Positions 31,677 to 50,204 of a stretch of DNA of 64,000 nt are shown here, piece by piece. Source of the stretch: Brachybacterium huguangmaarense (GTDB taxonomy: Bacteria; Actinomycetota; Actinomycetes; Actinomycetales; Dermabacteraceae); assembly GCF_025725725.1 (NCBI RefSeq), contig NZ_CP107020.1, forward strand, positions 1,798,001 to 1,862,000, in the 5' to 3' direction. The notes below the pieces were generated by a model, which saw only the letters and a program-made list of their open reading frames with translations, searched no databases and was not told where the DNA came from. The translations under genes and the position numbers were made by a program. Every line of letters starts with the position of its first letter. Position 1 is the first letter of the stretch.

Positions 31677-33292
31677 GCCCCCGTCCGCCGTCGCGGCCGC
31701 CCGAGCTGCCCGGCTACGAGTACCAGACGCTGCTGGGCAGCGGCGGCTTCGCCGACGTGTTCCTGTACCGCCAGGAGCGCCCCCAGCGAGAGGTCGCCAT
31801 CAAGGTCCTGCTCGCCGACGTGCACGACCCCGCCGTGCGGCGCCAGTTCGAGTCCGAGGCCAACGTGATGGCCACGCTGTCGACCCACCCCTCGATCGTC
31901 ACCATCCACCAGGCCGACGTGTCGGCCGACGGACGTCCCTACATCGCGATGGAGTTCTGCTCGCGACCGAACTACGGCGTGCGCTTCCGCAGCGAGCGGA
32001 TCGCGGTCGACGAGGCGCTGCGGGTGGGCGTCCAGATCGCCGGGGCCGTCGAGACCGCGCACCGCGCAGGCATCCTCCACCGCGACATCAAGCCCGCGAA
32101 CATCCTCGTGACCGCGTACAACCGGCCCGCGCTGACCGACTTCGGGATCTCCATCGCGGCGGGCGAGGGCGACCTCGACGACAGCGTCGGTATGTCCGTG
32201 CCGTGGTCGCCGCCCGAGTGCTTCGCCGACCCGCCCCGCGCCGACGTCCGCAGCGACGTGTTCTCGCTCGCCGCATCGGTCTACTCCCTGCTCGCGGGAC
32301 GCTCGCCCTTCGAGCCGATCGGCACCCGGGCGAGCGCCGCGGACCTCATCCGCAGCATCGAGACCGTGCCGCTCGCGCCGCTCGACCGGCCCGACGTCCC
32401 GCCCTCCCTGAACCGGGTCCTCGCGGTCGCGATGGCCAAGGACCCCGCCGGCCGCTACGACAGCGCGCTGTCGCTCGGCCGCGCGCTCCAGAGCGTCGAG
32501 AGCGAGCTGTCCCTGCCCGTGACCGGCATGGACGTGCTCGAGGAGCGCGGCGCGGCGGCCGAGCCGCACCCCGCCGACGACGAGCTCGACGCACACACCC
32601 GGATCCGGTCGATCACGACGCTCCCGGCCCCGGGCGCGAGCAGCCCGAACGGTCCCGGTCGCGTGCGGGACCCGTTCGCCGCAGTCGCCCCCGCCCCGGG
32701 CGCCGTGCCCGGCCCCCGCCGCTCCGCGCGCACGGTGCCCGAGACCACCGCGCCGACCGTGCTGCGCCCCGCCTCGGCCGCGAGCCCGACCCCCGTCGAG
32801 CCGGAAGACCCCGCCGGCGCCGACCGTCCGGGTCTGCGGCGCGGCCGCGTCCCCGCCTGGGCCGTGCTCACGCTCGTCACGGTGCTCGTGCTCGTCCTCG
32901 GCGTCGGCGCGGTCGTCGCCGTGCGCATCCTGTTCCCCGTCGAGACCCCCGCCGTCGCCTCCCGGACCACCGCCCCCGTGCTCATCGGCAGCGCGGACGT
33001 CCCCGTCCCGGAGGGCGTGACGATCGAGCCGATCGACATGGGCCCCGGGATCGACAAGGCGCGCATCACGTGGCAGCGGCCCGAGGGGTTCGACGCGTCC
33101 GACAGCTACACCGTGCACTGGGACATCGACGTCGACGGCTACGAGAAGTACGCGCAGCCGGTGACCGTCACCGGACGCGAGGCGGTCGTGCTCGACATGC
33201 CTCCCCACCAGGACCAGGTGTGCGTCGAGGTCGCCGTGGTCCCCTCGTCCGGCGCGATCGGCGAGCCTGCGGAGCAGTGCGCCTCGCCGTGA
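31673..33292 (+). CDS. Transmembrane Ser/Thr protein kinase (PknB-like catalytic domain)
   Basis: A 539-residue kinase. The Gly-rich loop GSGGFADV is at residues 22-29, the ATP lysine at 44 in VAIKVL, the catalytic loop HRDIKPANIL near residue 139 and DFGIS near residue 159, so it should be active. A Thr/Pro-rich juxtamembrane stretch leads to one membrane segment near residues 395-420. The external part of about 115 residues is FN3-like rather than the PASTA repeats of PknB. It should phosphorylate partners read by the FHA proteins of the same locus (inference). Start overlaps the preceding gene by 4 nt. Confidence 0.92.
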   Translation: MSPRPPSRPPELPGYEYQTLLGSGGFADVFLYRQERPQREVAIKVLLADVHDPAVRRQFESEANVMATLSTHPSIVTIHQADVSADGRPYIAMEFCSRPNYGVRFRSERIAVDEALRVGVQIAGAVETAHRAGILHRDIKPANILVTAYNRPALTDFGISIAAGEGDLDDSVGMSVPWSPPECFADPPRADVRSDVFSLAASVYSLLAGRSPFEPIGTRASAADLIRSIETVPLAPLDRPDVPPSLNRVLAVAMAKDPAGRYDSALSLGRALQSVESELSLPVTGMDVLEERGAAAEPHPADDELDAHTRIRSITTLPAPGASSPNGPGRVRDPFAAVAPAPGAVPGPRRSARTVPETTAPTVLRPASAASPTPVEPEDPAGADRPGLRRGRVPAWAVLTLVTVLVLVLGVGAVVAVRILFPVETPAVASRTTAPVLIGSADVPVPEGVTIEPIDMGPGIDKARITWQRPEGFDASDSYTVHWDIDVDGYEKYAQPVTVTGREAVVLDMPPHQDQVCVEVAVVPSSGAIGEPAEQCASP

Positions 33293-33339: not shown

Positions 33340-34044
33340 ATGGCAGCGATCTCGGTGGAGTTCTGCGGGGAATGGTTCGACCTCGAGGACGGCGGGGAGC
33401 TGACCATCGGCCGCGACGCGCAGCTCGCGATCGACGAGGACAACCAGTTCCTGCACCGGCAGTTCCTCTCGATCGTGCAGGTCGACTCGCTGTGGTGGCT
33501 CGTCAACATCGGCTCGCGGCTGTCGGCGACGATCACCGACTCGACGGGGACCATGCAGGCGTGGCTCGCCCCCGGCGCGCGGATCCCGCTCGTCTTCCCG
33601 ATCACCAAGGTCGTCTTCACGGCCGGACCCACCACGTACGACCTCTCCATCCACGCCCAGTTCCCCGAGTTCGAGCGCTCGCCGACCGCGGACGACCCCG
33701 CCGGCGACACCACGGTCGGCCCGGTCGCCCTCACGGTCAGCCAGAAGCAGCTGATCCTCGCCCTGTCCGAGCCGATGCTGACCCGGGACGGGACCGGGAT
33801 CAGCGCCGTCCCCACCTCCGCCCAGGCCGCAGAGCGTCTGGGCTGGTCGAGCACGAAGTTCAACCGCAAGCTCGACAACGTGTGCGACAAGCTCGACCGG
33901 CTCGGCGTGCGGGGCCTGCGCGGCGGCCCCGGCCGACTCGCGAGCAACCGACGTGCCCGGCTCGTCGAGCACGCCGTGTTCTCGCGCCTCGTCACCGCCG
34001 ACGACCTGCCCCTCCTCGACCTCGGCGCCGACGACGAGGACTGA
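33340..34044 (+). CDS. FHA-like domain plus C-terminal winged-helix protein
   Basis: This 234-residue protein has an N-terminal FHA-like beta domain (about residues 20-110, with LTIGRD and a degenerate phosphate loop) and a C-terminal helical domain (about residues 125-220) with AAERLGWSSTKFNRKLDNVC, which reads as a helix-turn-helix. ATG at 33340 with AAGGAGAGGG upstream. It may be a phospho-controlled DNA-binding protein of the locus and is a candidate to bind the palindromes before the WXG100 genes; that is inference. The FHA phosphothreonine residues are not all conserved. Confidence 0.65.
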   Translation: MAAISVEFCGEWFDLEDGGELTIGRDAQLAIDEDNQFLHRQFLSIVQVDSLWWLVNIGSRLSATITDSTGTMQAWLAPGARIPLVFPITKVVFTAGPTTYDLSIHAQFPEFERSPTADDPAGDTTVGPVALTVSQKQLILALSEPMLTRDGTGISAVPTSAQAAERLGWSSTKFNRKLDNVCDKLDRLGVRGLRGGPGRLASNRRARLVEHAVFSRLVTADDLPLLDLGADDED

Positions 34045-34134: not shown

Positions 34135-37100
34135 ATGCGCATCAAGCTCACGCTGCGACGTCCCGAGGACCGCCTGACCGACGTCGAGGTGACGGCGGAC
34201 GCGACCGCGACGGTCGCCGACGTCGCCTCCGCGCTCTACCTCGGCGACCCCCTGCGGGCCGGCATGCAGGCCCCCGAGGGTCTCACCCTGCAGGTGCAGG
34301 ACCCGGGCGCCGGGCCCGGCGCGAGCGGGGTGCGCACCCTGCGGCGCGACGCCGACCTGATCCAGGCCGGGCTGCGCTCGGGCAGCGTCGTCTCCATCGC
34401 GCGGTCGAGCGACCGCTATGCGAGCGCCTCGGAGTCCCGCGGCGCGGGCGTCGCCCTGCTGCGCGTGCTCTCCGGGCCCCAGGAGGGCCGCGAGTACCCG
34501 CTGCCCGCGGGCGCCACCGTGATCGGGCGCGAGGGCGACGTCGACATCCGCATCGCCGACGAGATGCTGTCCAAGCGCCACTGCCGTCTCAACGTCTCCG
34601 ACACCGTGGAGATCGTGGACCTCGGCTCCTCCAACGGGGTCGTGATCGCCGGCGAGCGCGTCGAGCGCGCCGTCGTGGGCCCCGCCGACACGGTCCTCAT
34701 CGGCGGCACCTCCTTCGCCGTGGTCCTGCTGCACCGTCCCGGCGGTGCCGCCCCGTCCTCGCCCGTCGTCGAGTTCAACCGGTCGCCCCGCGTGGTGCCG
34801 CGCTTCCCCTACCGGCCCCTGCAGGCGCCGACCCCGCCGAGCGAGCCGCAGGCCCAGCCCTTCCCCGTCATCATGATGATCGCGCCGCTGTTCATGGGAG
34901 CGTTCATGTTCCTGCTGACGGGCAGCCCGCGCTCGCTCATGTTCGTGTTCATGATGCCGCTCATGGCCGCGGCCGGGTACTTCACCCGACGGTCCCAGCA
35001 GCGCAAGATGCTCGAGACCCAGATCGCGCGCTTCACCGATGCGATGGCGTCCCTGCGGCGCCGCGTGAGCGCGGCCCAGGAGCTCGAGCGCGCGGTGCGC
35101 CTGGTGGAGGCACCGAGCGCCGCCGACACCGTCGACTCCGCCTTCCGCCTCGGCCGCCTGCTGTGGACCCACCGCCCCGAGCACGCCGCGTTCGGCACGG
35201 TCCGGCTCGGGCTCGGGATCGCCGAGTCCCGCGTCGGGATCGCGATGCCCAAGGAGAACAACGCGATCGCGGCGTACTGGGACGAGCTCGTGGACATGCA
35301 GGAGGAGTACAGCCGGATCGCCGGGGTCCCGATCGTCGCGGACCTGCGCACGTGCGGGTCGATCGGCGTCGCGGGGGCGGGGGAGGAGGCGCGCGGGGCC
35401 GCCCGGGCCGTCGCCGTGCAGCTGGCCGGGCTGCACTCGCCGGCCGAGGTCGCGCTCGCCGCGATCGTCTCCCCGCGCAGCCGGCGCGACTGGGAGTGGC
35501 TCAAGTGGCTGCCGCACACGTCCAGCCCGCACTCGCCGCTGCCGGGCGACCACCTCGCGGACTCGCGTCTGCTCGGTGCGTCCCTCGTCTCGCGCCTCGA
35601 GGAGCTGATCGCCGAGCGGGCCGGCGAGGACGACAGGCCGCAGAGCCGCGGCGCGCTCACGCCCGACGTGACCCAGGTGCCCGAGCTGCCGCCGGACCCC
35701 GTCACCCCGTCCCTCGTCGTGATCGTCGAGGACGACGCCCCCGTGGACCGGGCACGCCTGGTGCGCATCGCCGAGCGCGGCCCCGACGTCGGGGTGCACG
35801 TGCTGTGGTGCGCCGCCAACGTCGCCGCCCTGCCCGCGGCCTGCCGCACCCACCTCGTGATCGACGAGGCCGTCCAGGGCGCCTCCGCCGGCCACGTCCG
35901 GCTGGGGGAGCGCAGCTATCCCGTCACGATCGAGACGGTCGGACCGGACGTCGCCACGGGCGTCGCCCGCCACCTCGCGCCCGTCATCGACGCGGGCGTG
36001 CCCGTCGACGACGACTCCGACCTCCCGCGCTCGATCAACTGGCTCCAGCTCGCGGGCACCGAGCTGGCCGAGATCCCCGGCAGCATCGTCGAGCGGTGGC
36101 GCGAGAACGGCTCGCTCGTCCCGCGCGACGGCGCGGCCCCCGTGCGACGCAGCCACGACGCGGACCTGCGCGGCCTGATCGGGCACGACGGCGCCGACGC
36201 CTTCCACCTCGACCTGCGCACGCAGGGCCCGCATGCCCTCGTCGGCGGCACCACGGGCGCCGGCAAGTCGGAGTTCCTGCAGGCGTGGGTGATGGGCATG
36301 GCCACGGCCCACAGCCCCGACCGCGTGACCTTCCTGTTCGTCGACTACAAGGGCGGCGCCGCGTTCGCCGACGCCGTGACCCTGCCCCACGCCGTCGGCC
36401 TCGTCACCGACCTCTCGCCCCACCTGGTCCGGCGCGCCCTGACCTCCCTGCGCGCGGAGCTGCAGTACCGCGAGCACCTGCTGAACCGGAAGAAGGCCAA
36501 GGACCTCGTCTCGCTCGAGCGCACCGGCGACCCCGACTGCCCGCCGAGCCTCATCATCATCGTCGACGAGTTCGCCGCCCTGGCCAAGGAGATCCCCGAG
36601 TTCGTCGACGGCGTCGTCGACGTCGCCGCCCGCGGCCGCTCCCTCGGGCTGCACCTGATCCTGGCCACCCAGCGCCCCGCCGGCGTCATCAAGGAGAACC
36701 TGCGGGCCAACACGAACCTGCGCATCGCCCTGCGCATGGCCGACGAGGCGGACTCGAAGGACATCCTGGGCGACCAGATGGCCGCCCATTTCGATCCCGG
36801 CATCCCCGGGCGCGCCGCCGCCAAGACCGGTCCGGGGCGCATCGCCACCTTCCAGACCGGGTACGCGGGCGGCTGGACCACGGACGAGCCCGAGCAGGCG
36901 CGCGTCGACGTCGTCGAGAAGGCCTTCGGCACGGGGGAGACGTGGGACATGCCGGCGCCCGCCGTCGCCGAGACCGCCGACCCCGGGCCCAACGACATCA
37001 CCCGCATGGTGCGCACGATCCGGCGCGCCGCCGACGAGGCGGACGTGCCCGATCCCCGCAAGCCGTGGCTCGCCGAGCTCGCCGAGGCCTACGACCTCTC

Positions 37101-38601
37101 GCGCCTGCCGAGCCGCCGCACCGACGAGGAGCTCCTGCTCGGGGTCATGGACGTGCCCGAGAACCAGGCGCAGCCGACCGTCTCCTACCTGCCGGACCGC
37201 GACGGCAACATGGCGGTCTACGGCACCGGCGGCTCGGGCAAGTCGACGACCCTGCGCACCCTCGCGATCTCCGCCGCGAGCACCGTGCGCGGCGGGCCCG
37301 TGCACGTCTACGGGCTCGACTTCGGCGCCTCGGGCCTCACGATGCTCGAGGAGCTCCCGCACGTCGGATCGATCATCGCGGGCGATGACGAGGAACGGGT
37401 GACGCGGCTGCTGCGCACCCTGCGCCAGGAGATCGACGACCGCGCCAAGGAGTTCGCGCGCGTGCGCGCCGGCACGATCGCCGAGTACCGGCGGCTCGCC
37501 GAGGCGCCGGAGACCCCGCGCATCCTGCTGCTCGTCGACGGCATGGCCGCCTTCCGCGAGGCCTACGACTTCTCCCACCTCGCCAAGTGGTTCACGACCT
37601 TCGTGCAGATCGCGACCGACGGGCGCCAGGTCGGCGTGCATGTCGTGGTCACGGGCGATCGGCCCAGCGCCATCCCCACCTCGCTCGGCTCGTCGATCCA
37701 GCGCCGCCTCATCCACCGGCTCGCCTCGGCCGACGACTACTCGGTGTTCGGCGCGGCCCGCGACGTGCTGGACTCCTCCTCGCCTCCCGGGCGGGCGATC
37801 CTCGACGGCCACGAGGTGCAGATCGCCGTGCACGGCGGCGACGCCAACGTCGCCATCCAGTCGCGCGAGGTCGCGGCGCTCGCCCAGGCGATGCGGAGAG
37901 CCGGCGTGGGGCGGGCCCCCGCGATCGCCCGCCTGCCCGAGCGCGTCGAGTTCTCCTCGCTGCATCCCGTGCTCGGCGGGCGGCCCGTCGTGGGCGTGGC
38001 CGACGAGACGCTCTCGGAGATCGCGATCGAGCCGCGCGGCGCGTTCATGGTCTCCGGGCCGATCGGGTCGGGACGCACGACGACGCTGCTCACCCTCGCC
38101 ACCGCGCTGAAGGCCATGGAGCACCCGATGCGGATCGTGCGCTTCTCGGCCCGCCGCACGCCGTTGACGGGCCAGGGCATCTGGGACGTCGAGGCGTCGG
38201 ATCCCGACGAGGTGCGCACCCTCGCCCAGCAGCTGCTCGCGACCCTCGAGTCCGGCGGCGTCGCCGAGGGGCGGCTCGCGGTGTTCGTCGACGGCGTCGC
38301 GGACTTCACCGGCACGGGCGCCGAGGGCGACCTCGAGAAGCTGATCCGCAGCGCCGCCCGCGAGGGGCAGTTCGTGGTGGGCGAGAACGAGTCCTCCACC
38401 TGGTCCCAGGCCTACACGCTCGCCAAGCCCTTCAAGTCCGGGCGCCGCGGGATCCTGCTGCAGCCGAGCGACGGCGAGGGCGACACCCTGCTGGGCACAC
38501 CGCTCGGGCGGGTCCGGCGCGCGGACTTCTCGGCCGGCCGCGGGTTCCTGGTCGCCGGCGGGCGCGCCACCAAGCTCCAGGTCGCGCAGGTCACCGGCTG
38601 A
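34135..38601 (+). CDS. FtsK/SpoIIIE-type type VII secretion ATPase (EssC/EccC-like)
   Basis: A 1488-residue motor protein. Residues 1-100 form an N-terminal ubiquitin-like or FHA-like domain, residues about 108-205 an FHA domain (SKRHCRLNV, LGSSNGVVI), two membrane segments follow at about 244-290, then three ATPase domains. ATPase 1 has GGTTGAGKSE near residue 704 and IIIVDEFAALAKE near 809. ATPase 2 has GTGGSGKST near 1028. ATPase 3 has GPIGSGRTT near 1307, with Arg in place of the Walker lysine. N-terminal FHA plus two TM plus three ATPases is the EssC (Firmicutes T7SSb) layout rather than the split mycobacterial EccCa/EccCb. It drives export of WXG100 proteins and partners (family knowledge). 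Confidence 0.93.
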   Translation: MRIKLTLRRPEDRLTDVEVTADATATVADVASALYLGDPLRAGMQAPEGLTLQVQDPGAGPGASGVRTLRRDADLIQAGLRSGSVVSIARSSDRYASASESRGAGVALLRVLSGPQEGREYPLPAGATVIGREGDVDIRIADEMLSKRHCRLNVSDTVEIVDLGSSNGVVIAGERVERAVVGPADTVLIGGTSFAVVLLHRPGGAAPSSPVVEFNRSPRVVPRFPYRPLQAPTPPSEPQAQPFPVIMMIAPLFMGAFMFLLTGSPRSLMFVFMMPLMAAAGYFTRRSQQRKMLETQIARFTDAMASLRRRVSAAQELERAVRLVEAPSAADTVDSAFRLGRLLWTHRPEHAAFGTVRLGLGIAESRVGIAMPKENNAIAAYWDELVDMQEEYSRIAGVPIVADLRTCGSIGVAGAGEEARGAARAVAVQLAGLHSPAEVALAAIVSPRSRRDWEWLKWLPHTSSPHSPLPGDHLADSRLLGASLVSRLEELIAERAGEDDRPQSRGALTPDVTQVPELPPDPVTPSLVVIVEDDAPVDRARLVRIAERGPDVGVHVLWCAANVAALPAACRTHLVIDEAVQGASAGHVRLGERSYPVTIETVGPDVATGVARHLAPVIDAGVPVDDDSDLPRSINWLQLAGTELAEIPGSIVERWRENGSLVPRDGAAPVRRSHDADLRGLIGHDGADAFHLDLRTQGPHALVGGTTGAGKSEFLQAWVMGMATAHSPDRVTFLFVDYKGGAAFADAVTLPHAVGLVTDLSPHLVRRALTSLRAELQYREHLLNRKKAKDLVSLERTGDPDCPPSLIIIVDEFAALAKEIPEFVDGVVDVAARGRSLGLHLILATQRPAGVIKENLRANTNLRIALRMADEADSKDILGDQMAAHFDPGIPGRAAAKTGPGRIATFQTGYAGGWTTDEPEQARVDVVEKAFGTGETWDMPAPAVAETADPGPNDITRMVRTIRRAADEADVPDPRKPWLAELAEAYDLSRLPSRRTDEELLLGVMDVPENQAQPTVSYLPDRDGNMAVYGTGGSGKSTTLRTLAISAASTVRGGPVHVYGLDFGASGLTMLEELPHVGSIIAGDDEERVTRLLRTLRQEIDDRAKEFARVRAGTIAEYRRLAEAPETPRILLLVDGMAAFREAYDFSHLAKWFTTFVQIATDGRQVGVHVVVTGDRPSAIPTSLGSSIQRRLIHRLASADDYSVFGAARDVLDSSSPPGRAILDGHEVQIAVHGGDANVAIQSREVAALAQAMRRAGVGRAPAIARLPERVEFSSLHPVLGGRPVVGVADETLSEIAIEPRGAFMVSGPIGSGRTTTLLTLATALKAMEHPMRIVRFSARRTPLTGQGIWDVEASDPDEVRTLAQQLLATLESGGVAEGRLAVFVDGVADFTGTGAEGDLEKLIRSAAREGQFVVGENESSTWSQAYTLAKPFKSGRRGILLQPSDGEGDTLLGTPLGRVRRADFSAGRGFLVAGGRATKLQVAQVTG

Positions 38602-38686
38602 GACCGGGCCAGGCCGGCGAGGGCCGGGGGTCCCGGGAGGCCCGCGCGCCGGGGAGACACGGGACCTCCCCACGGGCGGCTTGTCC

Positions 38687-38708
38687 ACATGGGGAGTGCT
38701 CCCCATGT
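38687..38708. promoter_or_regulatory. Perfect palindrome upstream of first WXG100 gene (site 1)
   Basis: ACATGGGGAG and CTCCCCATGT flank TG, a perfect 22-nt palindrome. A TAGAGT -10-like box lies at 38729-38734, its first base 31.5 nt from the palindrome centre. The preceding GTCCACATGGGGAGT is identical to site 2 at 39690-39704. Probable operator or activator site. Confidence 0.65.
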
Positions 38709-38797
38709 CGGTCCCGGTCGCCGCTCCCTAGAGTGGGCCCGGTGGAGACACGCGGCGCCGGGCACCCGGGCCGCGCCGAGACGGACGGGGAGGCACC

Positions 38798-39067
38798 GTG
38801 AACACAGCCGCCAAGGGCATGTCCGTCGACGAGGTCCGGCGCATGGCGCGCGATCTCGCCGACGCGGCCGAGGAGATCGAGCAGATGCGGACCGAGCTCA
38901 CCACGGGGCTCGAGGAGGTCGACTGGACGGGCCCGGACGCGGACCGCTTCCGGGGCCAGTGGGCCGACGAGATGGCCCCCGCCCTCGAGGACCTCTCCAC
39001 CGCCATCGCCGCGCTCTCGACGACCGCCGAGACGAACGCGCAGGAGCAGGAGTCCACCTCCGCCTGA
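38798..39067 (+). CDS. WXG100-family protein 1
   Basis: An 89-residue helical hairpin protein of the ESAT-6/WXG100 type. The turn motif is DWTGPDADRF near residues 43-52, with Trp-Thr-Gly as WXG. Both flanks are amphipathic helices. These small proteins are exported as dimers by the EssC/EccC motor encoded just upstream. GTG start with GGGGAGG upstream; own promoter region with palindrome site 1. A Tyr-xxx-Asp/Glu export tail is not evident. Confidence 0.9.
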   Translation: MNTAAKGMSVDEVRRMARDLADAAEEIEQMRTELTTGLEEVDWTGPDADRFRGQWADEMAPALEDLSTAIAALSTTAETNAQEQESTSA

Positions 39068-39135
39068 TCGCAGGCACGGGGCCGCCGGCCCGCGGTGGGT
39101 ACAGTGACGGCGACCGAGCCGAGGAGCGCCGCGCC

Positions 39136-39628
39136 GTGACATCCCCTCCGACCAGGACCGTCGAGTTCCCGAGCGTCGAGCTGCCTGCGCCCCCCGCATC
39201 TGACGATGTCGGTGCCCGAGACCTGGGAGACCGTGATCGTGCCGGGCCTCCAGGTCGCCGTCGCCGAGCCCGCCGCGCCGGGCCGTTTCCGCGCCAACGT
39301 CGTCGTGACGTGCGAGCGTCTGCCCGCCGAGGGCGGGCCGGCCCGCGCCGTCGAGGCGCTCGGGCAGCGGAGCTCGGCGCTCCCGTCGCTCGAGGAGATC
39401 GTCACGGACGAGGTCGAGATCGCCGGTCGTCCGTGGCTGCGCCGCGAGTACGGCTACACCCAGCCGGGCTCGGAGACGGTGGTCCAGGCGGTCCGGCACA
39501 CCCACCTTGACCGCGGCCGGGCCGTCGACGTGATCGAGGTCGTCGGCAGCTGTGGGGCCGCCCGCGCCGACGAGCTCTTCGCGGTGATCCGCGGGATCCA
39601 GGACTCGGTGCGGGTCTGGATCGACTGA
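39136..39628 (+). pseudogene. Mog1/PsbP-like (LpqN-like) protein gene with apparent frameshift
   Basis: A GTG at 39136 with GAGGAG upstream opens a frame encoding MTSPPTRTVEFPSVELPAPP, but the frame then leaves the conserved part, which continues one frame over from 39206 (SVPETWETV to the C-terminus at 39628). Removing one C from the run of six at 39190-39195 fuses both into a continuous 163-residue protein with a smooth junction. The 140-residue downstream frame has an ATG at 39206 but no ribosome binding site. It may be a real lesion, a sequencing error, or slippage. The fold assignment (small alpha/beta protein near WXG100 genes) is tentative. Confidence 0.55.
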
Positions 39629-39689
39629 TCGATCCGGCGGCCTGCATGCCGAGCCGGTCCCCGTCGGGCGGCGTGTGGAGGGGACGGCG

Positions 39690-39740
39690 TCCACATGGGG
39701 AGTTGTCCCCATCGTCAGGTGTGACAGGCACCTCTAGGCT
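39690..39740 (+). promoter_or_regulatory. Palindrome and -10 box upstream of second WXG100 pair (site 2)
   Basis: GTCCACATGGGGAGT, identical over 15 nt to site 1, forms the palindrome ATGGGGA-GTTG-TCCCCAT at 39695-39712. TAGGCT at 39735-39740 is 31.5 nt from its centre, exactly as at site 1. No good -35 box is present at either place, which suggests activator-dependent promoters. Confidence 0.65.
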
Positions 39741-39836: not shown

Positions 39837-40097
39837 ATGAAGAAGGGCATGATCCCGGAGGACGTCGACAAGATCGCCACCGACATCACCACGGCGGTCG
39901 AGGATGTGGACACCTACTACAACGACGCCTACAGCGCCCTCACGGAGCTGGACTGGACCGGCGACGACCGCGATCGCTTCGTGAGCGATTTCGAGGAGCA
40001 GGTGGGCGGCCTGCTCACCACGCTCAAGCAGGCCGCGAGCGACATGGCCACGCGCGCCACCACGAACGCCAACGAGCAGCGCAACGCCTCCGCCTGA
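39837..40097 (+). CDS. WXG100-family protein 2
   Basis: An 86-residue WXG100 protein; turn motif LDWTGDDRDRFV near residues 38-49. Helix-turn-helix hairpin with polar C-terminal tail ending NEQRNASA. ATG at 39837 with CAGGAGGGC upstream. It lies 46 nt before a third WXG100 gene, so the two are probably co-transcribed and may form the secreted heterodimer, as EsxA/EsxB do. Confidence 0.9.
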   Translation: MKKGMIPEDVDKIATDITTAVEDVDTYYNDAYSALTELDWTGDDRDRFVSDFEEQVGGLLTTLKQAASDMATRATTNANEQRNASA

Positions 40098-40143: not shown

Positions 40144-40428
40144 ATGTCTTTCAAGGGCATGAACTCGGAAGACGGCCGCACCGTGGCCGACACCCTCAAG
40201 ACCGCCGGGACCAACATCCAGGAGGCCTTCGCCACCGCCACCACGAGCGTGAACAGCGCCAACTGGGTCGGGGACGACCGCGAGTCCTACGTCGCGGACT
40301 GGAGCAGCCTCGTCACGAACCAGATCGATCCGCTCGTGGACGCCCTGACCACCAAGAGCGAGGATCTCCGCCAGCAGGCCGAGGAGCAGGACACGACCTC
40401 GACCGGCGGCGGCTCGTCCTACGCCTGA
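40144..40428 (+). CDS. WXG100-family protein 3
   Basis: A 94-residue WXG100 protein with the turn NWVGDDRESYV (Trp-Val-Gly) near residues 40-50 and a Ser/Gly-rich tail. ATG at 40144 with AAAAAGGACT upstream. Last gene of the secretion locus; a strong terminator follows at 40460. Likely partner of WXG100 protein 2. Confidence 0.88.
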   Translation: MSFKGMNSEDGRTVADTLKTAGTNIQEAFATATTSVNSANWVGDDRESYVADWSSLVTNQIDPLVDALTTKSEDLRQQAEEQDTTSTGGGSSYA

Positions 40429-42565: not shown

Positions 42566-42892
42566 CTAGCCGGTGGTCTGCTCCACAATCAGCTCGTAGT
42601 GGTGGACACTGCCGTTCCAGAGGATCGGCATGGGCTGGCCGATCACTTCGAGGGTGGTGCCGAGGGCGCTGATTTTGGAGCTTGCGTCGATCTTCGCGGT
42701 GGCCGGCAGGATGAGCCGGAACCGGATCACCACGGCGTCACGGTTCGGTTCGTTCAGATCGTCCGTGGAGAGGGGAGAGAACTCTCCGTAGACGGTCTCC
42801 TCGACGTCCGGGCCGTAGATGGGGTTGCCGTAGCGGTCGCGGCCGATCTCCCCGCCCTTCCGGAGTATGACGATCTTCGTGTGGCCGATCAC
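42566..42892 (-). CDS. Phage head-closure (head-tail stopper) protein
   Basis: A 108-residue beta-rich protein similar in size and pattern to the SPP1 gp16/HK97-type head-closure family (VILRKGGEIGRDRYGNPIYG, then GEFSPLSTDDL). It would cap the packaged head below the adaptor and form the tail docking surface. GTG start in a GTGA overlap with the adaptor gene. It is the last gene of the element; where a phage would continue with tail terminator and tail tube genes, the element ends. A satellite that keeps this docking protein must match a helper tail (inference). Confidence 0.75.
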   Translation of the reverse strand: MIGHTKIVILRKGGEIGRDRYGNPIYGPDVEETVYGEFSPLSTDDLNEPNRDAVVIRFRLILPATAKIDASSKISALGTTLEVIGQPMPILWNGSVHHYELIVEQTTG

Positions 42893-43197
42893 TGGGCGCG
42901 CCGCCTATACCTGTTCAGCACGAACGTTTCGGCGAGAGTCCAGCCGCGGAAGGAGTCCTGCACGGTGACAGCGCCGGCCGAATACCGGAGTTGTTCCGGG
43001 TTGGCGATGAGGCGGGCGGTTGCCGTGGTGACGACTGCGGTGATCTCCTCGTTGGGCTCGTTGGCGGTGAAGCCGCCGCCGCGAGTGTAGGACCGAGCCA
43101 TGGCGATGATGATCGCAAGGTGCTCCCCGGCCAGGGCGGCAAGCTCTTCGTTGTCTCCCTGGCCGAGGAACTCTGCGACGTCCTTGCCTTCGATCAT
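42889..43197 (-). CDS. Phage head-tail adaptor (connector) protein
   Basis: A 102-residue mostly helical protein with the pattern of the Gp15/gp6-like adaptor family: short N-terminal helix, conserved ARSYTRGGGF followed by ITAVVTTATARLIANPEQ, and a C-terminal segment ending NRYRRRAQ. It would form a ring under the portal. One-nt overlap with the capsid stop and 4-nt overlap with the head-closure gene, so all three are translationally coupled. Confidence 0.78.
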   Translation of the reverse strand: MIEGKDVAEFLGQGDNEELAALAGEHLAIIIAMARSYTRGGGFTANEPNEEITAVVTTATARLIANPEQLRYSAGAVTVQDSFRGWTLAETFVLNRYRRRAQ

Positions 43198-44027
43198 CAG
43201 GCGGCCTTGGCGACGATGACACCTTCGGGGTGCAGCAGGCCGAGGTCGAAGCGGGCGGTCACGCGGATCGCCTGCTCGTCGTACTCCGCGTATCGCTGGT
43301 CCAGGAGCTTCACGGTCGGGTTGGTGTCCCGGGCGATCGCGACCTGCGACATGTCCGCGAGGACCGCGGTGCCGGCGGGCAGCTTGTTGGTGACGGTGAC
43401 GGGGACCCCGAAGAGGCGGTACGTGGTGCCCGTGGTGATGTCGGACTCCAGCACGTACTTGCCGGACGTGTCCTTGATCTTCCGCACGGAGAAGAAGTCA
43501 GCGCCGGAGATGAACCAGCGGTTCGGGGTGACCTCCGCGGCCGAGGCGAGGGCGAGGGCGTCGAGGAAGCTGTCGGGCTCCGTGGCATCGAGCACGGCGT
43601 GCTGCACACCGGGCTGGTTGATGATGCCGGTCACGGACTTGTCCGCGCCGTTGCCGGTGAGGAACGCGGTGTCGAGCTTCCGGGCGACGTCGGACACGAG
43701 ACGGGCCTTGAGGGTCGCGTCCAGGCCGATGACGGACTGGCGCAGAAGCTCGTTGGTGAACCGGATCAGCGTCTTGATGGACTTCCGGTCCGTGGGCATG
43801 AGGCGGACCTCGTCGAAGTTCACGTCGTGCTCGGGGATCAGCTCGCCCTCACCAACCCAGGCGGGATCGCTCGAGGAGACGAGCTTGGGGATGCGCAGCG
43901 GGGACGCGGTGTCGAAGATCCGGGGACCGGACGCGAGGACGACGGACGCGGCCTCGAGGGGCTGGAGAAGGATCGAGGCGACCTGCTCCTGGAGCAGTTC
44001 GGGGTTGGTGGTGGTGGTCTCAGCCAT
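43197..44027 (-). CDS. HK97-fold major capsid protein
   Basis: A 276-residue major capsid protein. The pattern (N-arm, then IPKLVSSSDPAWVGEGELIPEHDV, the E-loop region, the P-domain helix TLKARLVSDVARKLDTAFLTG, and the A-domain GVPVTVTNKLPAGTAVLADM) is that of the HK97 fold as found in siphophages of actinobacteria. It lacks a long N-terminal delta domain, consistent with the separate scaffold gene at 44328. ATG with AGGAG upstream. A strong hairpin lies between it and the gene before it. Confidence 0.9.
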   Translation of the reverse strand: MAETTTTNPELLQEQVASILLQPLEAASVVLASGPRIFDTASPLRIPKLVSSSDPAWVGEGELIPEHDVNFDEVRLMPTDRKSIKTLIRFTNELLRQSVIGLDATLKARLVSDVARKLDTAFLTGNGADKSVTGIINQPGVQHAVLDATEPDSFLDALALASAAEVTPNRWFISGADFFSVRKIKDTSGKYVLESDITTGTTYRLFGVPVTVTNKLPAGTAVLADMSQVAIARDTNPTVKLLDQRYAEYDEQAIRVTARFDLGLLHPEGVIVAKAA

Positions 44028-44086
44028 TGTTGGCTCCTAAGTCTGAGAAGTGAATGTGTTCTCGCTCAGGTGCCAGACCTGCAAAG

Positions 44087-44123
44087 CAATGAGGGCGCGG
44101 CCACCAGGACCACGCCCTCATTG
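44087..44123 (-). terminator. Hairpin between small gene and capsid gene
   Basis: Perfect 11-bp stem (44087-44097 with 44113-44123) with a 15-nt loop, right after the stop of the 59-residue gene and 60 bases before the capsid ATG. Without a U tract it may be an attenuator or an mRNA-stabilising/processing element that tunes capsid dosage. Confidence 0.5.
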
Positions 44124-44133
44124 TAGCGGTGAA

Positions 44134-44313
44134 CTACTTCTTGCGTACAGTCTTCACTTTGCTCGCGAGGATGGAGAAAACGATGCCGTCCTCGTCCGTG
44201 ATGAACTCGAAGTAGCCGTTGCGGTTCTCATACCGCTCGGCCTCGACCTCGATCGAAAGGTCATCCTTCGTCCGAGCGTTCTGCGTTCCTTCATTGATGA
44301 TGTACGTCCGCAT
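44134..44313 (-). CDS. Small phage structural-operon protein, unknown function
   Basis: A 59-residue protein (starts MRTYIINEGTQNARTKDD, ends VKTVRKK) that is easily overlooked because of its size. ATG at 44313 has AAGGAGAAG directly upstream, and it fits exactly between scaffold and capsid. Composition is unlike a shadow frame: balanced, with Tyr, Phe, Ile and Asn, and a plausible beta pattern (ERYENRNGYFEFITDEDGI). It might be a head decoration or assembly protein by position; I do not recognise a family. Confidence 0.7.
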   Translation of the reverse strand: MRTYIINEGTQNARTKDDLSIEVEAERYENRNGYFEFITDEDGIVFSILASKVKTVRKK

Positions 44314-44327
44314 CTTCTTCTCCTTGT

Positions 44328-44798
44328 TTAGGCTCGTGACCGCAGCAGTGCGGCGAGGTCGACCGTACCGTGGGAGTCGGACATCTGGCCCTGACCAACG
44401 TCACCGCGGGGCCGACGGGAGGCGAGGTGGGGCTTGCGGGCGAGGAGATCGTCAACTGCAGACTGCAGTTTCGCGGGGTCATCGAGGTGGTCGTCTGCGA
44501 AGGGCAGATCCTCAGGGTCGGCGAGGCGGCCCGTCGCCTTCACGAGCTGCACGTGGAGACGGTGGGCGAGGTCGTCGGCCTCCTGGGCTCGTTGACGGTA
44601 GCGGCCATTCTCCTGGCGCAGCTTCTCGACGTATTCACGGGGGAACGTCTCAGCGGTCTCCTGAGACTCCTCCTGACCCTCGGGAGCGTCCTGGGGCGTC
44701 TCCTGACCGTCCTGGGGCTCGTCATGGCCCTCGGCGGCGTGGTGGACGTCCTGGGGCGTCTCCTGGGGCTCCTGGGGAGTCTTCTGGGCGTGGGGCAT
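44328..44798 (-). CDS. Phage head scaffolding protein
   Basis: A 156-residue, very hydrophilic protein. The first 50 residues are Glu/Gln/Pro-rich with repeated QETPQD; residues 52-90 form a likely coiled coil (YVEKLRQENGRYRQRAQEAD); the C-terminus is basic (LAALLRSRA). This acidic head, coiled coil and basic tail is typical of scaffolds encoded just before the capsid in actinophages. ATG with AAGGAG upstream, 16 nt after the MuF-like gene. Confidence 0.8.
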   Translation of the reverse strand: MPHAQKTPQEPQETPQDVHHAAEGHDEPQDGQETPQDAPEGQEESQETAETFPREYVEKLRQENGRYRQRAQEADDLAHRLHVQLVKATGRLADPEDLPFADDHLDDPAKLQSAVDDLLARKPHLASRRPRGDVGQGQMSDSHGTVDLAALLRSRA

Positions 44799-44814
44799 GG
44801 TGTTCTCCTTCGAT

Positions 44815-45423
44815 CTAGTGGTCCAGTCGGGTCTTGCGGGCTTCGGACGCCTCCCAGCTCCTCTCGTCAGGCGTCCTCATGTCGTCGGCAGCGATCATCA
44901 CGGGCACTTGACGGCAGGTGCAGCCCTTATGGGTCTGCAGGCTGTAGCCCTTCGGCCAGACACGCCCCTCCCGCCACCACCATGTGCACAGCTCGCAGGC
45001 ATCAGGTTCCATGCCGCGTTTCCAGCCCTTGACGCGCCGAGAGGTCTGCATGGTCCTGCTGAACGCGCTCTGTGCGGCCTCGATCGCCTCGGAGCGCGCG
45101 AGGCGTCCCGCGGCCATGACGGCCGACCCCTGCTCCGCAAGTGCCGTCCTGGTGGCCTTCTGGATGCGCTCGGCGTCGTGGACGTGTGAGTACGCCTCGC
45201 CTGTGACCACGGAAGTGTCGTCGCCCAGGGAGATCAGCAGTTCCCTGCACGCGGCTTCACCGAGGTTGAGGCCGCGCGCGTTGGACGTACGCACCACGAC
45301 CTCGAGGCCGTCGATCGCGATCTCAAGGTCGATCTGCCCGGACACGTACTTCGAGGCGATCGTGGTGGCCTGGCGCTCAGCCCGGGAACCGAGGTGCGCC
45401 AGGAGATCCGTGAACGTGGTCAT
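44815..45423 (-). CDS. MuF-like minor head protein
   Basis: A 202-residue protein placed after portal, as SPP1 gp7/Mu gpF relatives are. The C-terminal part has the conserved Cys/His pattern of the family: ACELCTWWWREGRVW, then THKGCTCRQVPV. The N-terminal half is helical and probably binds the portal. ATG overlaps the portal stop (ATGA). Toxin fusions are common in this family; none is present here. Confidence 0.8.
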   Translation of the reverse strand: MTTFTDLLAHLGSRAERQATTIASKYVSGQIDLEIAIDGLEVVVRTSNARGLNLGEAACRELLISLGDDTSVVTGEAYSHVHDAERIQKATRTALAEQGSAVMAAGRLARSEAIEAAQSAFSRTMQTSRRVKGWKRGMEPDACELCTWWWREGRVWPKGYSLQTHKGCTCRQVPVMIAADDMRTPDERSWEASEARKTRLDH

Positions 45424-46700
45424 GCCGCGACCTGTCCGACGAGGCCGGCGGCGGCGCGGTCAACTGCCTCAGTGCGGGAAGCGGCCCGGATCTCCGCGAT
45501 CTCGTCATCCCCGTAGCCGAGGCGCTTGAGCGCATACGTCGCGGGCAGCAGGCCGGCGGTGTACAGCTTCACGACGGCGTCGGCTTCCTGGGCGATCGAG
45601 CGGGTCGCGGGGTCCGCCCACGTGATCCGCACGTCCACGGTCGAGGGGTCCACGCCGGTACGGACCGCGACGACGAGGCGGGCGACCTGCTCCCACGCGC
45701 GGCCGAAGATCTGCTGACGCTGCTCGGCCCGTGCCGTCAGAGACGCCTCAGCGGCCCTCAGAGCGTCCGCGGACGGCGGCTGCGACGCCGAGATCCCCAC
45801 GTAGTGATCCGGGAGGCCGGAGAGGGCCTGCATCTGCTGCACCACGACCTTGATAGCCGCGTCATAGGCGGAGAGGTCCGCCGCCGGCAGGGAACCGAAC
45901 TTCGACGCAGGGTCCTCGGAGATCATCATTCGGTTGTTCTCGGGGAACGGGTTGGCGACCTCCCCGTCCTCGTCCTCGACCAGCTCCACGCCCGTCGCCC
46001 AACGTCGGGGGCGTGCGTAGTACTCCGAGCCCACCATGAGGTCCGCCAGGAGCTTGTTCAGGGAGTCCTGGAGCGGAAGGAGGTCGCGCATCTCTGACAT
46101 GCCCGGGGCGTTCAGCCGGTCCGTGTTCACCAGCTCCACGACGGGGACGACGCCGAGGGGGTTCTCGAGGGTCTCCATGACCGCATAGCCGGATGCGGCG
46201 TCGGTCCCCTGCGCCCGGTAGCGGACGATCGTGTCCGGCCCGTACAGGACCGCGTGGGTGTGCGTGGCATCCGTCCACCGCTTCACCCCGGCGACGATCT
46301 CCCGCGAGGCAGGGTCACGGATCACAGCGACCTGCCGGGCGTCCTCCACGGTGATCGTCGGCCGGCCCTGCTCGTCGGCCCACACGATCACGAACGCGGA
46401 GCCGAGAGTCAGGGCCTCCCGGTGGGCGACCGGGGCGAGCTGGTCCAGATCGTTGCGGATCCAGTCGGCCCACACGTCGGCGCCCGTGAAGCCGGTGACA
46501 CGGAGCCGCTCCGACAGGGCGGTGACCGCGAGGCGGCACAGGTTCGAGCCGAGGACACCGAACCGGTTGCCCAGCGCTTCCTTCGCCTCGGGGGCGAGGA
46601 ACGCCAGGGGCGGCTGCCCGGTGTAGTACCGGTCGAGGCGGGAGAACTTGCCGGTGTTCTCGTCCAGCCGCTGAATCAGAGTAGTCAGAATGTCGCTCAC
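45420..46700 (-). CDS. Phage portal protein (SPP1 gp6-like)
   Basis: The 426-residue dodecameric vertex protein through which DNA enters and leaves the head. Recognisable stretches are SRLDRYYTGQPPLAFLAP near residue 20, LVVAVRTGVDP and the pattern GLPDHYVGISASQPPSADAL near residue 300. I chose the GTG at 46700 because it forms a GTGA overlap with the terminase stop and has AAAGG upstream; a GTG 45 bases earlier would add 15 residues. Complete, with no internal disruption. Confidence 0.88.
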   Translation of the reverse strand: MSDILTTLIQRLDENTGKFSRLDRYYTGQPPLAFLAPEAKEALGNRFGVLGSNLCRLAVTALSERLRVTGFTGADVWADWIRNDLDQLAPVAHREALTLGSAFVIVWADEQGRPTITVEDARQVAVIRDPASREIVAGVKRWTDATHTHAVLYGPDTIVRYRAQGTDAASGYAVMETLENPLGVVPVVELVNTDRLNAPGMSEMRDLLPLQDSLNKLLADLMVGSEYYARPRRWATGVELVEDEDGEVANPFPENNRMMISEDPASKFGSLPAADLSAYDAAIKVVVQQMQALSGLPDHYVGISASQPPSADALRAAEASLTARAEQRQQIFGRAWEQVARLVVAVRTGVDPSTVDVRITWADPATRSIAQEADAVVKLYTAGLLPATYALKRLGYGDDEIAEIRAASRTEAVDRAAAGLVGQVAA

Positions 46701-48163
46701 TTGAATGATCTTACCTTTCGCTTCTTCGATTTCATAGCGTTCCACGTGGAACGTGAATGTGCCATGACGGCCGCGGCAGCCAAGTCGATATGCCGCGTCG
46801 AGCCGCGCTTGGACTTGTCGAGCCGCACACCGCGCTCGGACTCATTCACGACAGCGTTGCCGATATGCCGCGCGAAGTCCTTGTCCCCGGAATGTGTGAC
46901 CGCGCCATTGATGCACGCGTTGTAGAAGTCCGTGGTCGCAGGCGTGATGCGCGCCGCCGACCAGGGGAACTCCGTGATGGGCAGGCCCTCGCGCTCAAGG
47001 ACTTGTAGCGTCCTCGTCCACCGGAACGGGTCAGCGACGATCTCCTTGACCTTCCAGCGGCGGCAGGCGGCGCGGATCGTGTCCTCCACGTCCTCCACGG
47101 GCACCCGGTAGTCGGAGTCGCCCACGGGCGGCTCCCACATCGCGAGCTTGTCCATGTGCGGGGTCAGGGAGATCGTGGAGATCACCAGCGCCGTCGCATC
47201 GGAGTTGAAGGAGCCGTCCAGGGCGATCACCACCTCCGCGCCGTCCTCGATCTCCTCGCCCGTGGACAGGCCGTCCCACACCCGCTCCGGCAGGAACCCG
47301 CCGCTGCTCTCGCTGACGAACTGGCAGAGCCTCGCCCGGCGGAAGGTCGCCTCACGGGTCTTCGGTGGTAGGAGCGCCCGGATCGCGTCGACGTGAAGGA
47401 AGTCGCCCAGCGCCGGGTTCGCCAGCTCCCAGCAGTGCTCGCAGTCCACCGGGTGATCCTCGAAGCCCGCAGCGGAGAACTCGCGCCACACGAAGGACGT
47501 GTCCTCCGGGTGGGCCCGCCCGTACGCCCGCAGGTCCGCCAGGACGTTCTCGTGTGGGTTCGGCCCCGGAGTGCCAATACCGATCAGCACCGACTCGGCG
47601 CGCTTGCCCTGGGCGAGGCTCAGGACCTCCCACGTGTCCCTGCGGACCACGCCGATCTCGTCCACGATCGCCAGCGACGGGTCCAGGCCCTCCAGTGACG
47701 CCGGAGTGGCCGGAAGGACCACGAACTCCGCGCCCCGCGACGGCACCCGCAGCTTGTCCTGGTACACCTGCACCCGGGCCGCGAGATCCTCGTTCAGCTC
47801 GACCATCCGCACAGCCGTCTTGAAAATGATTCCCGCCTGGCGTTCGTCATACGCGACCACGACCACCGACGCGCCCTCCTGGCCGAGCATCAGCTCGAAC
47901 AGGCCCAGCGCCGCCAGCAGCGTGGACTTCCCCTGCCCTCGAGGAAGCATCCACCCCGCCGTCCGCGGCATCGGCTTCGCATCCAGCACAGAGCCCACCA
48001 GCTCCACCTGCCACGGCCGCAGCTTCAGGGGCTTCGACGCACCCGTGCCCTTCGGGACCACGACGTAGTCCCGCACGAACTTCGCGAACCTCTTCGAGCC
48101 CTTCAGTCGCGTGTTGAACGGAAGCGGTGACGGATCGACTGCTGCTTTCCTACCTGCCTGCAT
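46697..48163 (-). CDS. Phage terminase large subunit
   Basis: A 488-residue DNA packaging motor. Walker A PRGQGKST is near residue 75, Walker B LAIVDEIG near residue 165, and the RNase-H-like nuclease domain has aspartates in VIALDGSFNSDATALV and VADPFRW, with a late acidic cluster around HIDLAAAAVM. The ATG at 48163 has GGAAGGA five bases upstream and gives a 14-nt overlap with the HNH gene; a start 102 bases earlier would overlap it by 116. No small-subunit (TerS) gene is recognised in the element. Confidence 0.92.
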   Translation of the reverse strand: MQAGRKAAVDPSPLPFNTRLKGSKRFAKFVRDYVVVPKGTGASKPLKLRPWQVELVGSVLDAKPMPRTAGWMLPRGQGKSTLLAALGLFELMLGQEGASVVVVAYDERQAGIIFKTAVRMVELNEDLAARVQVYQDKLRVPSRGAEFVVLPATPASLEGLDPSLAIVDEIGVVRRDTWEVLSLAQGKRAESVLIGIGTPGPNPHENVLADLRAYGRAHPEDTSFVWREFSAAGFEDHPVDCEHCWELANPALGDFLHVDAIRALLPPKTREATFRRARLCQFVSESSGGFLPERVWDGLSTGEEIEDGAEVVIALDGSFNSDATALVISTISLTPHMDKLAMWEPPVGDSDYRVPVEDVEDTIRAACRRWKVKEIVADPFRWTRTLQVLEREGLPITEFPWSAARITPATTDFYNACINGAVTHSGDKDFARHIGNAVVNESERGVRLDKSKRGSTRHIDLAAAAVMAHSRSTWNAMKSKKRKVRSFK

Positions 48164-48635
48164 GAGAATCCTTCCCAATAGCAACTGCCCCTGTGCCTTG
48201 CGGCTCGGGGTCGAACGTGATATGGCGAACCCCTGCCCCCCAGGGTTGGCCGGGTTCTTGACCACGAGGACGACCAGCTCGGACCCAGACCTCGAACCGC
48301 TCGGTACCCGGCCGCGAGGAACCCCGATCCGTGTTGCAGCCGGCGCAGACCACGTCCACGTCAGGGAGGCCGATGGGGAGGCCCTGGGAGCGCCGCCACC
48401 ACGCGGACGGCAGATGGTCGGTCGTCAGGTTGTCCTCACGACCGCAGGTCGCGCAGAACGGCTGTAGACGGCGCGCACGAGCCGCGATCCGCTTCCACGT
48501 CCCGTCGTAGCCGCGTCCCGTGGTCGAGCGATTCCTCGGAGCCCGCGGCGTCGCCCGATCCAGCTCGGCAGCACAGTCCATGCACCTGCTGCCCTCGACC
48601 GGCACACCACACCCCAGGCACGGACGGCGCGTCAC
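48150..48635 (-). CDS. HNH endonuclease
   Basis: A 161-residue nuclease with two zinc-type Cys pairs at the N-terminus (CLGCG, CMDC) and the HNH core CATCGREDNLTTDHLPS followed by VDVVCAGCNTDRG. HNH proteins next to the large terminase are needed for cos cleavage in several HK97-like phages (family knowledge), so it is probably part of the packaging machinery. GTG at 48635 has GGAGGTGG upstream and overlaps the preceding stop (GTGA). Confidence 0.88.
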   Translation of the reverse strand: MTRRPCLGCGVPVEGSRCMDCAAELDRATPRAPRNRSTTGRGYDGTWKRIAARARRLQPFCATCGREDNLTTDHLPSAWWRRSQGLPIGLPDVDVVCAGCNTDRGSSRPGTERFEVWVRAGRPRGQEPGQPWGAGVRHITFDPEPQGTGAVAIGKDSHAGR

Positions 48636-48838
48636 GACTCCACCTCCCACGACGCCAGCCGAGCCCGGTAGCACTCCACGCACGGACACTCGAGCCGGGG
48701 CCGATGCTTCTGCTGCATCCACCTGTCCGTGCGACCCCGTGCGATCTGACCGAGCAGCGACTCGTCCTTCGCGATCTTCGCGACGTAGTCACACACGCAC
48801 GGCCAGCCCTTGCAGCGAATGCACACCGTCTTGCTCAC
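48632..48838 (-). CDS. Small Cys-rich protein of the element
   Basis: A 68-residue protein with four Cys clusters (CIRC, CVC, CPCVEC), probably zinc-binding. GTG at 48838 overlaps the replication gene stop, and its own stop overlaps the HNH start, both as GTGA, so it is a real member of the operon. I do not recognise the family. Position would suit a packaging or replication accessory factor; it does not look like a small terminase. Confidence 0.7.
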   Translation of the reverse strand: MSKTVCIRCKGWPCVCDYVAKIAKDESLLGQIARGRTDRWMQQKHRPRLECPCVECYRARLASWEVES

Positions 48839-49479: not shown

Positions 49480-49504
49480 CTGCTCCTCCTTTCGTTGGTA
49501 TGGG

Positions 49505-49536
49505 GAGGGGGCCGGCCCTGTGGGCTCGGCCCCCTC
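49505..49536 (-). terminator. Hairpin between early and late genes of the element
   Basis: Perfect 10-bp GC-rich stem (49505-49514 with 49527-49536), loop of 12, in the 63-nt gap before the replication gene on the minus strand. Could attenuate read-through from the excisionase promoter into the replication and head genes. Confidence 0.5.
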
Positions 49537-49542
49537 GGGGTC

Positions 49543-50004: not shown

Positions 50005-50186
50005 GCGGACTCCTTCTCGAACTGCTCGTTGATCCACGCCTCGATGTCCGACTCGCGGAACATGCGACGGCCGCCGATCTTGGCCGAGCGCGGCGCCTGG
50101 CCGGTGTAGATGAGCCACTCCATCTGCCGGGGCGACTTCCCCAGCAGCTCCCCGGCCTGGGGGATGGTCAGCAGCTTGATGTTCAC
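50001..50186 (-). CDS. Excisionase / AlpA-like helix-turn-helix protein
   Basis: A 61-residue MerR-like winged helix: MNIKLLTIPQAGELLGKSPR at the start, then KIGGRRMFRESDIEAWI. This is the compact Xis/AlpA fold that bends DNA for excision and often activates the element's operon. ATG at 50186 with GGGAGGAG upstream. First gene of the minus-strand operon, divergent from the regulator. Confidence 0.88.
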   Translation of the reverse strand: MNIKLLTIPQAGELLGKSPRQMEWLIYTGQAPRSAKIGGRRMFRESDIEAWINEQFEKESA

Positions 50187-50204
50187 AGTGCACTCCTCCC
50201 TGTT

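Follow-up and report, generated by a model that had tools for sequence, protein, structure and literature searches.

The window analyzed here, a stretch of 64,000 nucleotides of Brachybacterium huguangmaarense DNA (contig NZ_CP107020.1, positions 1,798,001 to 1,862,000), contains two inverted repeats, called operators below, in front of the esx genes of a type VII secretion system (T7SS) cluster. The repeats appear to belong to a dispersed regulon of type VII substrate genes, and the regulon itself is well supported by the occurrence of the motif in this genome, in the genus, and in the order. In our judgement the likely explanation is that an unnamed activator of the FHA-LuxR type drives this regulon via the operators. 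A protein of the same cluster with an FHA-like domain and a predicted HTH domain (the FHA-HTH protein) is probably the regulator, judging from co-occurrence, gene position, and weak fold matches, and from the same material we infer its binding to the operators as a dimer, the activation, and an input signal.

Operator 1 (38687–38708; all window features given here are on the plus strand) reads ACATGGGGAGTGCTCCCCATGT and forms the dyad ACATGGGGAG-TG-CTCCCCATGT, with the core at 38689–38706. A preliminary description made from the sequence had called it a perfect 22-nt palindrome; it is a palindrome but not a perfect one, as its two 10-nt arms are complementary throughout around a central TG that is not self-complementary (20 of 22 positions). 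The related palindrome reported at 39695–39712, operator 2, is present as ATGGGGAGTTGTCCCCAT, with 7-nt arms and a 4-nt centre, and 14 of its 18 positions are self-complementary. As had been claimed, a -10 hexamer begins 31.5 nt after each centre, namely TAGAGT (38729–38734) in the esx1 promoter and TAGGCT (39735–39740) in the esx2-esx3 promoter, with transcription starts predicted near 38741 and 39747, respectively. No TTGACA-like -35 element was seen at the two window promoters.

The 15 bases said to be shared were found to be exact: the 15-mer GTCCACATGGGGAGT occurs at 38683–38697 and at 39689–39703. The window holds no further match to it with up to three mismatches, in agreement with the earlier statement that there is no other copy, and 1.84 matches at three mismatches would be expected by chance. 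Since 149 15-mers are repeated in the window, the shared 15-mer alone is weak evidence and no more than chance would give. The dyad is only mildly unusual as well; two dyads with exact 10-nt arms and a 2-nt gap occur in the window (38687 and 52967) vs 0.275 per shuffle in 40 shuffles. The second of these, at 52967–52988, is unrelated in sequence to the operator and adjoins tRNA genes. What clearly goes beyond chance is the recurrence of ATGGGGA-N4-TCCCCAT across the genome and the genus at a constant spacing to TANNNT, and a chance repeat, considered as an explanation, was ruled out by this constant spacing together with the genus-wide recurrence.

When the 3.26-Mb genome of the same strain was searched with ATGGGGANNNNTCCCCAT at up to two mismatches, 11 places were obtained, and the reversed control gave one. 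Seven of the 11 have TANNNT (the box) 22–23 nt downstream and the other four have no box. The boxed sites precede four intact WXG100-type genes, one truncated WXG100 gene, one lipoprotein-like gene, and one gene for a 258-aa protein of no known function, so that five of the seven stand before WXG100 genes. The sites elsewhere in the genome lie before a 360-aa protein whose N-terminal domain is WXG100-like (1040014), a 332-aa WXG100-like protein (2301786), the truncated WXG100 gene (1488816), the 258-aa protein, whose family is not known (1654487), and the lipoprotein-like protein of 429 aa (1269216). At the secretion-machine genes of the window, no operator with up to two mismatches was found upstream. 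A regulon dedicated to substrate expression, as put forward in the preliminary description, is thus backed by a genome-wide search that did not yield many unrelated copies, and also by the comparisons within the genus and the order given below.

Two of these sites have features of their own. The site at 2301786 (locus L013, 5787–5804) has a correctly spaced -10 on both sides of one operator and faces, in the opposite direction, a gene whose 193-aa product carries a bacterial PH domain; from its sequence it is apparently a bidirectional promoter between the WXG100-like gene and the PH-domain gene. The site at 1488816 (locus L014, from about 5817) is apparently a regulon promoter left ahead of a decayed substrate gene.

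Within Brachybacterium, the exact motif was found in 36 of 38 genomes, at 1 to 13 sites each, and the reversed control in none of the 38. Among the 14 named Brachybacterium clusters with DNA beyond eccC, 13 have sites with up to two mismatches before esx genes, the exception being B. alimentarium (locus L030), which has a degenerate dyad; within the same limit, a counterpart of operator 1 stands upstream of the esx1 ortholog in 13 of the 14. Exact sites were followed further in six Brachybacterium genomes (43 of 44 sites; 2404346 in G008 was left out). A box at 22–24 nt was present at 37 of the 43, and 24 had both a box and a WXG100 open reading frame (ORF), scored with a local hidden Markov model (HMM) at E<1e-5; 10 of these were cluster esx genes and 14 were dispersed. 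Among the other genes behind sites are those for small membrane proteins, for a DUF4352 protein, for a protein with a bacterial PH domain, and for proteins without known function.

The spacing was examined in 252 oriented copies, in which each site is counted in both directions, identical flanks are removed, and orthologous sites are kept. TANNNT was found at offset 22 in 69 copies, at 23 in 17, and at 24 in five, and in at most three at any other offset between 5 and 49. With 91 of 252 copies boxed at offsets 22–24, and with the same 31.5 nt at both window sites, the proposed class-II activator geometry holds. Alignment of 65 non-redundant sites gave the consensus ATGGGGA[G/C]TNCTCCCCAT; as membership of the set required the core, with no more than one mismatch, and a box at 22, only the other columns are informative, and none between the operator flank and the -10 exceeds 0.35 bits. 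Thus no -35 element emerged here either, which agrees with the earlier remark that the promoters lack one. Class-II promoters have an operator at a fixed position of about -41 to -44 and no recognisable -35, and both features are found here, the former relative to predicted starts.

We propose that the palindromes are the operators of a scattered T7SS-substrate regulon in Brachybacterium and its relatives. A dimer of the FHA-HTH protein would bind the site ATGGGGAsTNCTCCCCAT, whose centre is about 43 nt upstream of the start, and there it would stand in for the absent -35 element and activate RNA polymerase at the TAnnnT -10 in a class-II manner. In this way the protein would turn on the cluster's own esx genes together with dispersed genes for WXG100-headed proteins, mostly of about 280–480 aa, and for certain membrane proteins and lipoproteins. 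Its activity may follow kinase or secretion state, as the Ser/Thr kinase, the PP2C phosphatase, and the FHA-bearing EccC encoded nearby suggest; these three are candidates by neighbourhood only.

The distribution of the candidate was compared with that of the operator. Relatives of the FHA-HTH protein (E≤1e-10) were present in 169 of 396 genomes of the order, representing 57 of 110 genera. The exact operator was found in 106 of these 169 genomes vs two of the 227 lacking the protein (Fisher 1.8e-48, not corrected for descent), and the reversed motif in one of the 396. With Brachybacterium removed the counts were 81/143 vs 2/226 (Fisher 4e-39), and in the 18 genera that contain both kinds of genome they were 51/76 vs 0/67 (Cochran–Mantel–Haenszel p 1e-8). 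Among the 123 genomes with EccC at E≤1e-80, the exact operator occurred in 75 of 99 with the FHA-HTH protein vs none of 24 without it; therefore, the operator tracks the FHA-HTH protein rather than the secretion ATPase. EccC was scored on at most four candidates per genome, which makes calls of its absence uncertain.

A scan for one-mismatch sites covered 80 of 89 genomes (six weak FHA-HTH matches of genus g44, and G065, G222, and G320, were left out). Such sites were present in 43 of 56 genomes that have the FHA-HTH protein and no exact site, vs one of the 24 genomes with EccC and without the protein; the reversed control gave 5/56 and 3/24, respectively. The two genomes that have exact sites and no FHA-HTH protein, G222 and G320, show no -10 at the required distance, and the two copies in G320 share identical flanks; these sites were taken for chance occurrences, yet kept in the counts. 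Among named loci, that of Microbacterium rhizomatis (L035) has both the FHA-HTH protein (60%) and a site, and no site was found in seven EccC loci without the protein (L034, L037, and L039–L043). One Brachybacterium genome (G007) has a divergent EccC (55% identity to that of the window), no FHA-HTH protein, and no operator; its secretion cluster has apparently been replaced, to judge from the sequences.

The same distribution bears on a second explanation, to which we give roughly the weight of an outside candidate: a different LuxR-type regulator, from elsewhere in the genome, recognizes the operators of a regulon that is itself real, and the FHA-HTH protein is merely co-inherited with the secretion cluster. 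G-rich inverted repeats such as this one suit response regulators in general. One regulon site of the same genome has, about 2.8 kb away, an ORF that resembles response regulators, so assigned by sequence only (L014, 8648–9334, minus strand), and some genomes with the FHA-HTH protein have no exact sites. However, exact sites were absent from all 24 genomes with EccC and without the protein (one of which has a one-mismatch site) and from all 67 genomes of the mixed genera that lack it. Moreover, the other cluster proteins scanned showed no DNA-binding family, only kinase, phosphatase, FHA, AAA-type ATPase, DUF58, transglutaminase, and FtsK.

The FHA-HTH protein is encoded at 33340–34044, between the kinase and EccC genes. 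It has 234 aa and was chosen as the candidate regulator by co-occurrence, conservation, and predicted folds, with an FHA-like N-terminal domain and a predicted LuxR/NarL-type HTH domain. The LuxR/GerE family profile gave no match to it, and a search of PDB sequences gave a single meaningless match (E 0.64). When 17 relatives were aligned, weak HTH_8 matches were found in four and weak FHA matches in two. An AlphaFold model of the full-length protein built from this alignment had a predicted local distance difference test score (pLDDT) of 71.4, and one of only the C-terminal domain reached 78.6. The former matched solved FHA domains 11 times at E≤0.001 (best 1.6e-4), in accordance with the FHA beta-sandwich fold. 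Of the 50 matches that VIA-align listed for the C-terminal model, the first 48 were to domains that we take, partly from general knowledge, to be of the LuxR/NarL type (Z 6.5–8.5, root-mean-square deviation 1.5–3.9 over 58–77 residues), the top match being the DNA-binding domain of Listeria DegU (Z 8.5, deviation 2.2 over 68 residues). A Z near 8 can reflect merely a common arrangement, and families were judged among the listed matches; the modelled C-terminal domain is thus suggestive only of a LuxR/NarL-like fold, which would suit a class-II site near -43. Conservation is higher in the HTH half (mean pairwise 85.7%) than in the FHA half (77.5%).

Several observations weigh against the FHA-HTH protein acting on the operators as an activator. 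Pfam and NCBIfam recognized no family in the window protein, and the fold support is weak, with 17-sequence alignments, pLDDT values of 71 and 79, and an HTH half for which Foldseek gave no match at E≤0.001. In FHA domains the phosphothreonine contacts are made by the motifs GR, SxxH, and NG; in the alignment GR is kept, and the Ser/His and NG positions, as assigned by eye, read LHR-F and G-RL-AT. These positions are mostly substituted, and therefore a phospho-signal, and the reading of phosphothreonine by the FHA part, appear doubtful. On the side of the sites, six of the 43 exact sites in the six Brachybacterium genomes have no box at 22–24, and 19 of the 43 were not scored as a box with a WXG100 gene. 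An exact site is missing from 63 of the 169 genomes with the FHA-HTH protein, among them one Brachybacterium genome (G033, counted as a miss), and 13 of the 56 re-examined genomes lack even a one-mismatch site. Finally, co-occurrence cannot separate the FHA-HTH protein from undetected co-inherited regulators or from unprofiled cluster genes (kinase, phosphatase, MoxR, and others).

The loci of the order-wide scan, as a rule one per genome, also count on this side. Of 31 exact sites only 11 had a box at 22–23, and of 30 one-mismatch sites only 13 did; the exact set includes G222 and G320 and the one-mismatch set includes G033 and G404, the latter lacking the FHA-HTH protein. Only 13 of the 24 boxed sites are followed by an ORF that the esx HMM recognizes at E<0.01 (9/11 exact and 4/13 one-mismatch), and the matches are mostly weak. 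As this HMM was built from 148 redundant segments of Brachybacterium and Microbacterium cluster genes, matches to cluster esx genes are partly circular. The regulon seems to be older than the genus, though looser outside it.

The operators might instead be the sites of a repressor, a dimer at -43 blocking RNA polymerase until it is released. The FHA-HTH protein EspM represses whiB6, according to passages of PMC7002343. Position by itself is no proof of activation. We nevertheless regard repression as unlikely, given that the 65 aligned promoters have no -35 element and that the spacing is near-invariant, as an activator touching the polymerase requires; repressors usually tolerate varied operator positions. 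That an esx gene was recently duplicated along with its promoter, with no regulon involved, could explain why both window sites precede paralogous WXG100 genes and have 15 nt in common, but the operator-to--10 spacers have no common sequence, and the dispersed sites found ahead of other genes, both in the six genomes studied in detail and in other families, refute it. Equally negligible is the notion of the dyads as transcription terminators or RNA hairpins: they are inverted repeats in intergenic DNA, the first one after eccC, but they lie upstream of -10 boxes at a fixed distance with no T-run behind, and copies occur in either orientation ahead of single genes, one site being bidirectional.

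The nearest known system in architecture and role is EspM of Mycobacterium, described in passages of PMC7002343 and PMC11005418 as an FHA and HTH regulator at the ESX-1 locus, with 363 aa and two HTH domains around a helical bundle. EspM and the window protein share, on that description, an FHA N-terminus, an HTH C-terminus, and a gene beside a type VII locus, and EspM regulates T7SS genes. The window protein differs in having 234 aa and one predicted LuxR-type HTH, and in being linked to a dyad-defined regulon of activator geometry. A word search of the main texts of both papers found no mention of a palindrome. The NCBIfam model of EspM (NF052403) did not match the FHA-HTH protein at E≤1, and it gave a weak match (E 0.0021) to the FHA part of EccC.

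A LuxR-type DNA-binding domain is also tied to T7SS expression in Bacillus subtilis, where, as stated in passages of PMC3701619, the Ess T7SS requires the response regulator DegU, which works with the sensor kinase DegS; the words 'binding site' do not occur in the main text of that paper. Unlike DegU with its partner DegS, the window protein carries an FHA-like domain, and its gene lies beside that of a Ser/Thr kinase.

In class-II activation of the LuxR type, the lux box lies near -42.5. The dyad near -43, the missing -35, and the predicted GerE-type HTH are similar, and the FHA-like sensor is the difference. Operators of the DosR type are GGGAC inverted repeats; they resemble the present ones in their G-rich half-sites, and the C-terminal domain of DosR is among the structural matches (Z 7.8), whereas the half-site here is ATGGGGA and the sensor domain is another one. 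The bifidobacterial PFNA cluster is made up of genes for a kinase, an AAA ATPase, a DUF58 protein, and a transglutaminase. These genes occur together in the window cluster too, which, unlike PFNA, continues into the FHA-HTH, EccC, and esx genes and has a long first gene with tandem-95 repeats and no FN3 assigned (NCBIfam only).

To our knowledge, little is known about how T7SSs are switched or what they carry outside mycobacteria and Bacillota, and we found no description of the operator motif or of an FHA-LuxR regulator among the papers listed by searches of the open-access literature. An operator at a fixed distance from the -10 allows genome scans to list candidate cargo anywhere, including proteins without a WXG100 domain. 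It also points to one uncharacterised protein as a candidate master regulator, and it places an FHA-type regulator beside a Ser/Thr kinase and a phosphatase. A wider and more tentative proposal, which we hold to be somewhat less than an even chance, is that a new family of transcription factors with a degenerate FHA domain and a LuxR-type HTH controls T7SS substrates in many families of the order through one conserved operator. The operator would then mark scattered cargo, including non-WXG100 proteins, and the FHA part would report the state of the kinase–phosphatase pair or of EccC, coupling cargo synthesis to secretion.

The esx genes behind the two operators differ in how firmly they are assigned. 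The product of esx1 (38798–39067, 89 aa) is a WXG100 protein above the Pfam cut-off (PF06013, E 1e-06, 29.3 bits vs 27.3). The WXG100-like product of esx2 (39837–40097, 86 aa) was matched by TIGR03930 below its cut-off (E 0.0019), has no Pfam WXG100 match, and has a conserved gene position. The WXG100-like product of esx3 (40144–40428, 94 aa) had no Pfam or NCBIfam match and was assigned by its conserved position and its NWVGDD motif; the long WXG100-type proteins were, like esx2, called below curated cut-offs or with the local HMM. Between esx1 and esx2 lies the gene for a 140-aa protein of no known function (39206–39628). It matched no Pfam or NCBIfam family at E≤1, and of the 14 named Brachybacterium loci that extend past eccC, 13 have it (47–56% identity). 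An EspG-like function was suspected from the sequence for several regulon genes and was dropped, as Pfam gave no family.

Upstream of esx1 is the gene for an EccC/EssC-type ATPase with an FHA domain (34135–38601, 1488 aa; PF01580, E 2.5e-51; PF00498, E 5.6e-12), whose nearest named relatives are 15 Brachybacterium records with 76–83% identity. Its score with the EssC model TIGR03928 was 542.9 bits, below the cut-off of 778.4 and thus short of the curated limit for type VIIb (EssC), and it is also below those of the EccCa and EccCb models. The cluster further encodes the PP2C-type phosphatase (28480–29337; PF13672, E 2.2e-13), a 780-aa FHA-domain protein (29334–31676; PF00498, E 1.5e-05), and the Ser/Thr protein kinase (31673–33292, 539 aa; PF00069, E 1.7e-34). 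A gene for a 2064-aa protein with tandem-95 repeats (15987–22181; NF012211) heads the run of MoxR, DUF58, transglutaminase, RDD/FHA, PP2C, FHA, and kinase genes.

Elsewhere in the window, a gene for an M48 peptidase (HtpX-like) is followed by a prophage-like block (42566–51936) with a capsid protein (PF05065), an SPP1-type portal (PF05133), a terminase large subunit (PF03354), and an integrase (PF00589). Genes for tRNA-Tyr, tRNA-Thr, and tRNA-Met lie at 52706–53081, and a full 16S-23S-5S rRNA operon occupies 9181–14365.
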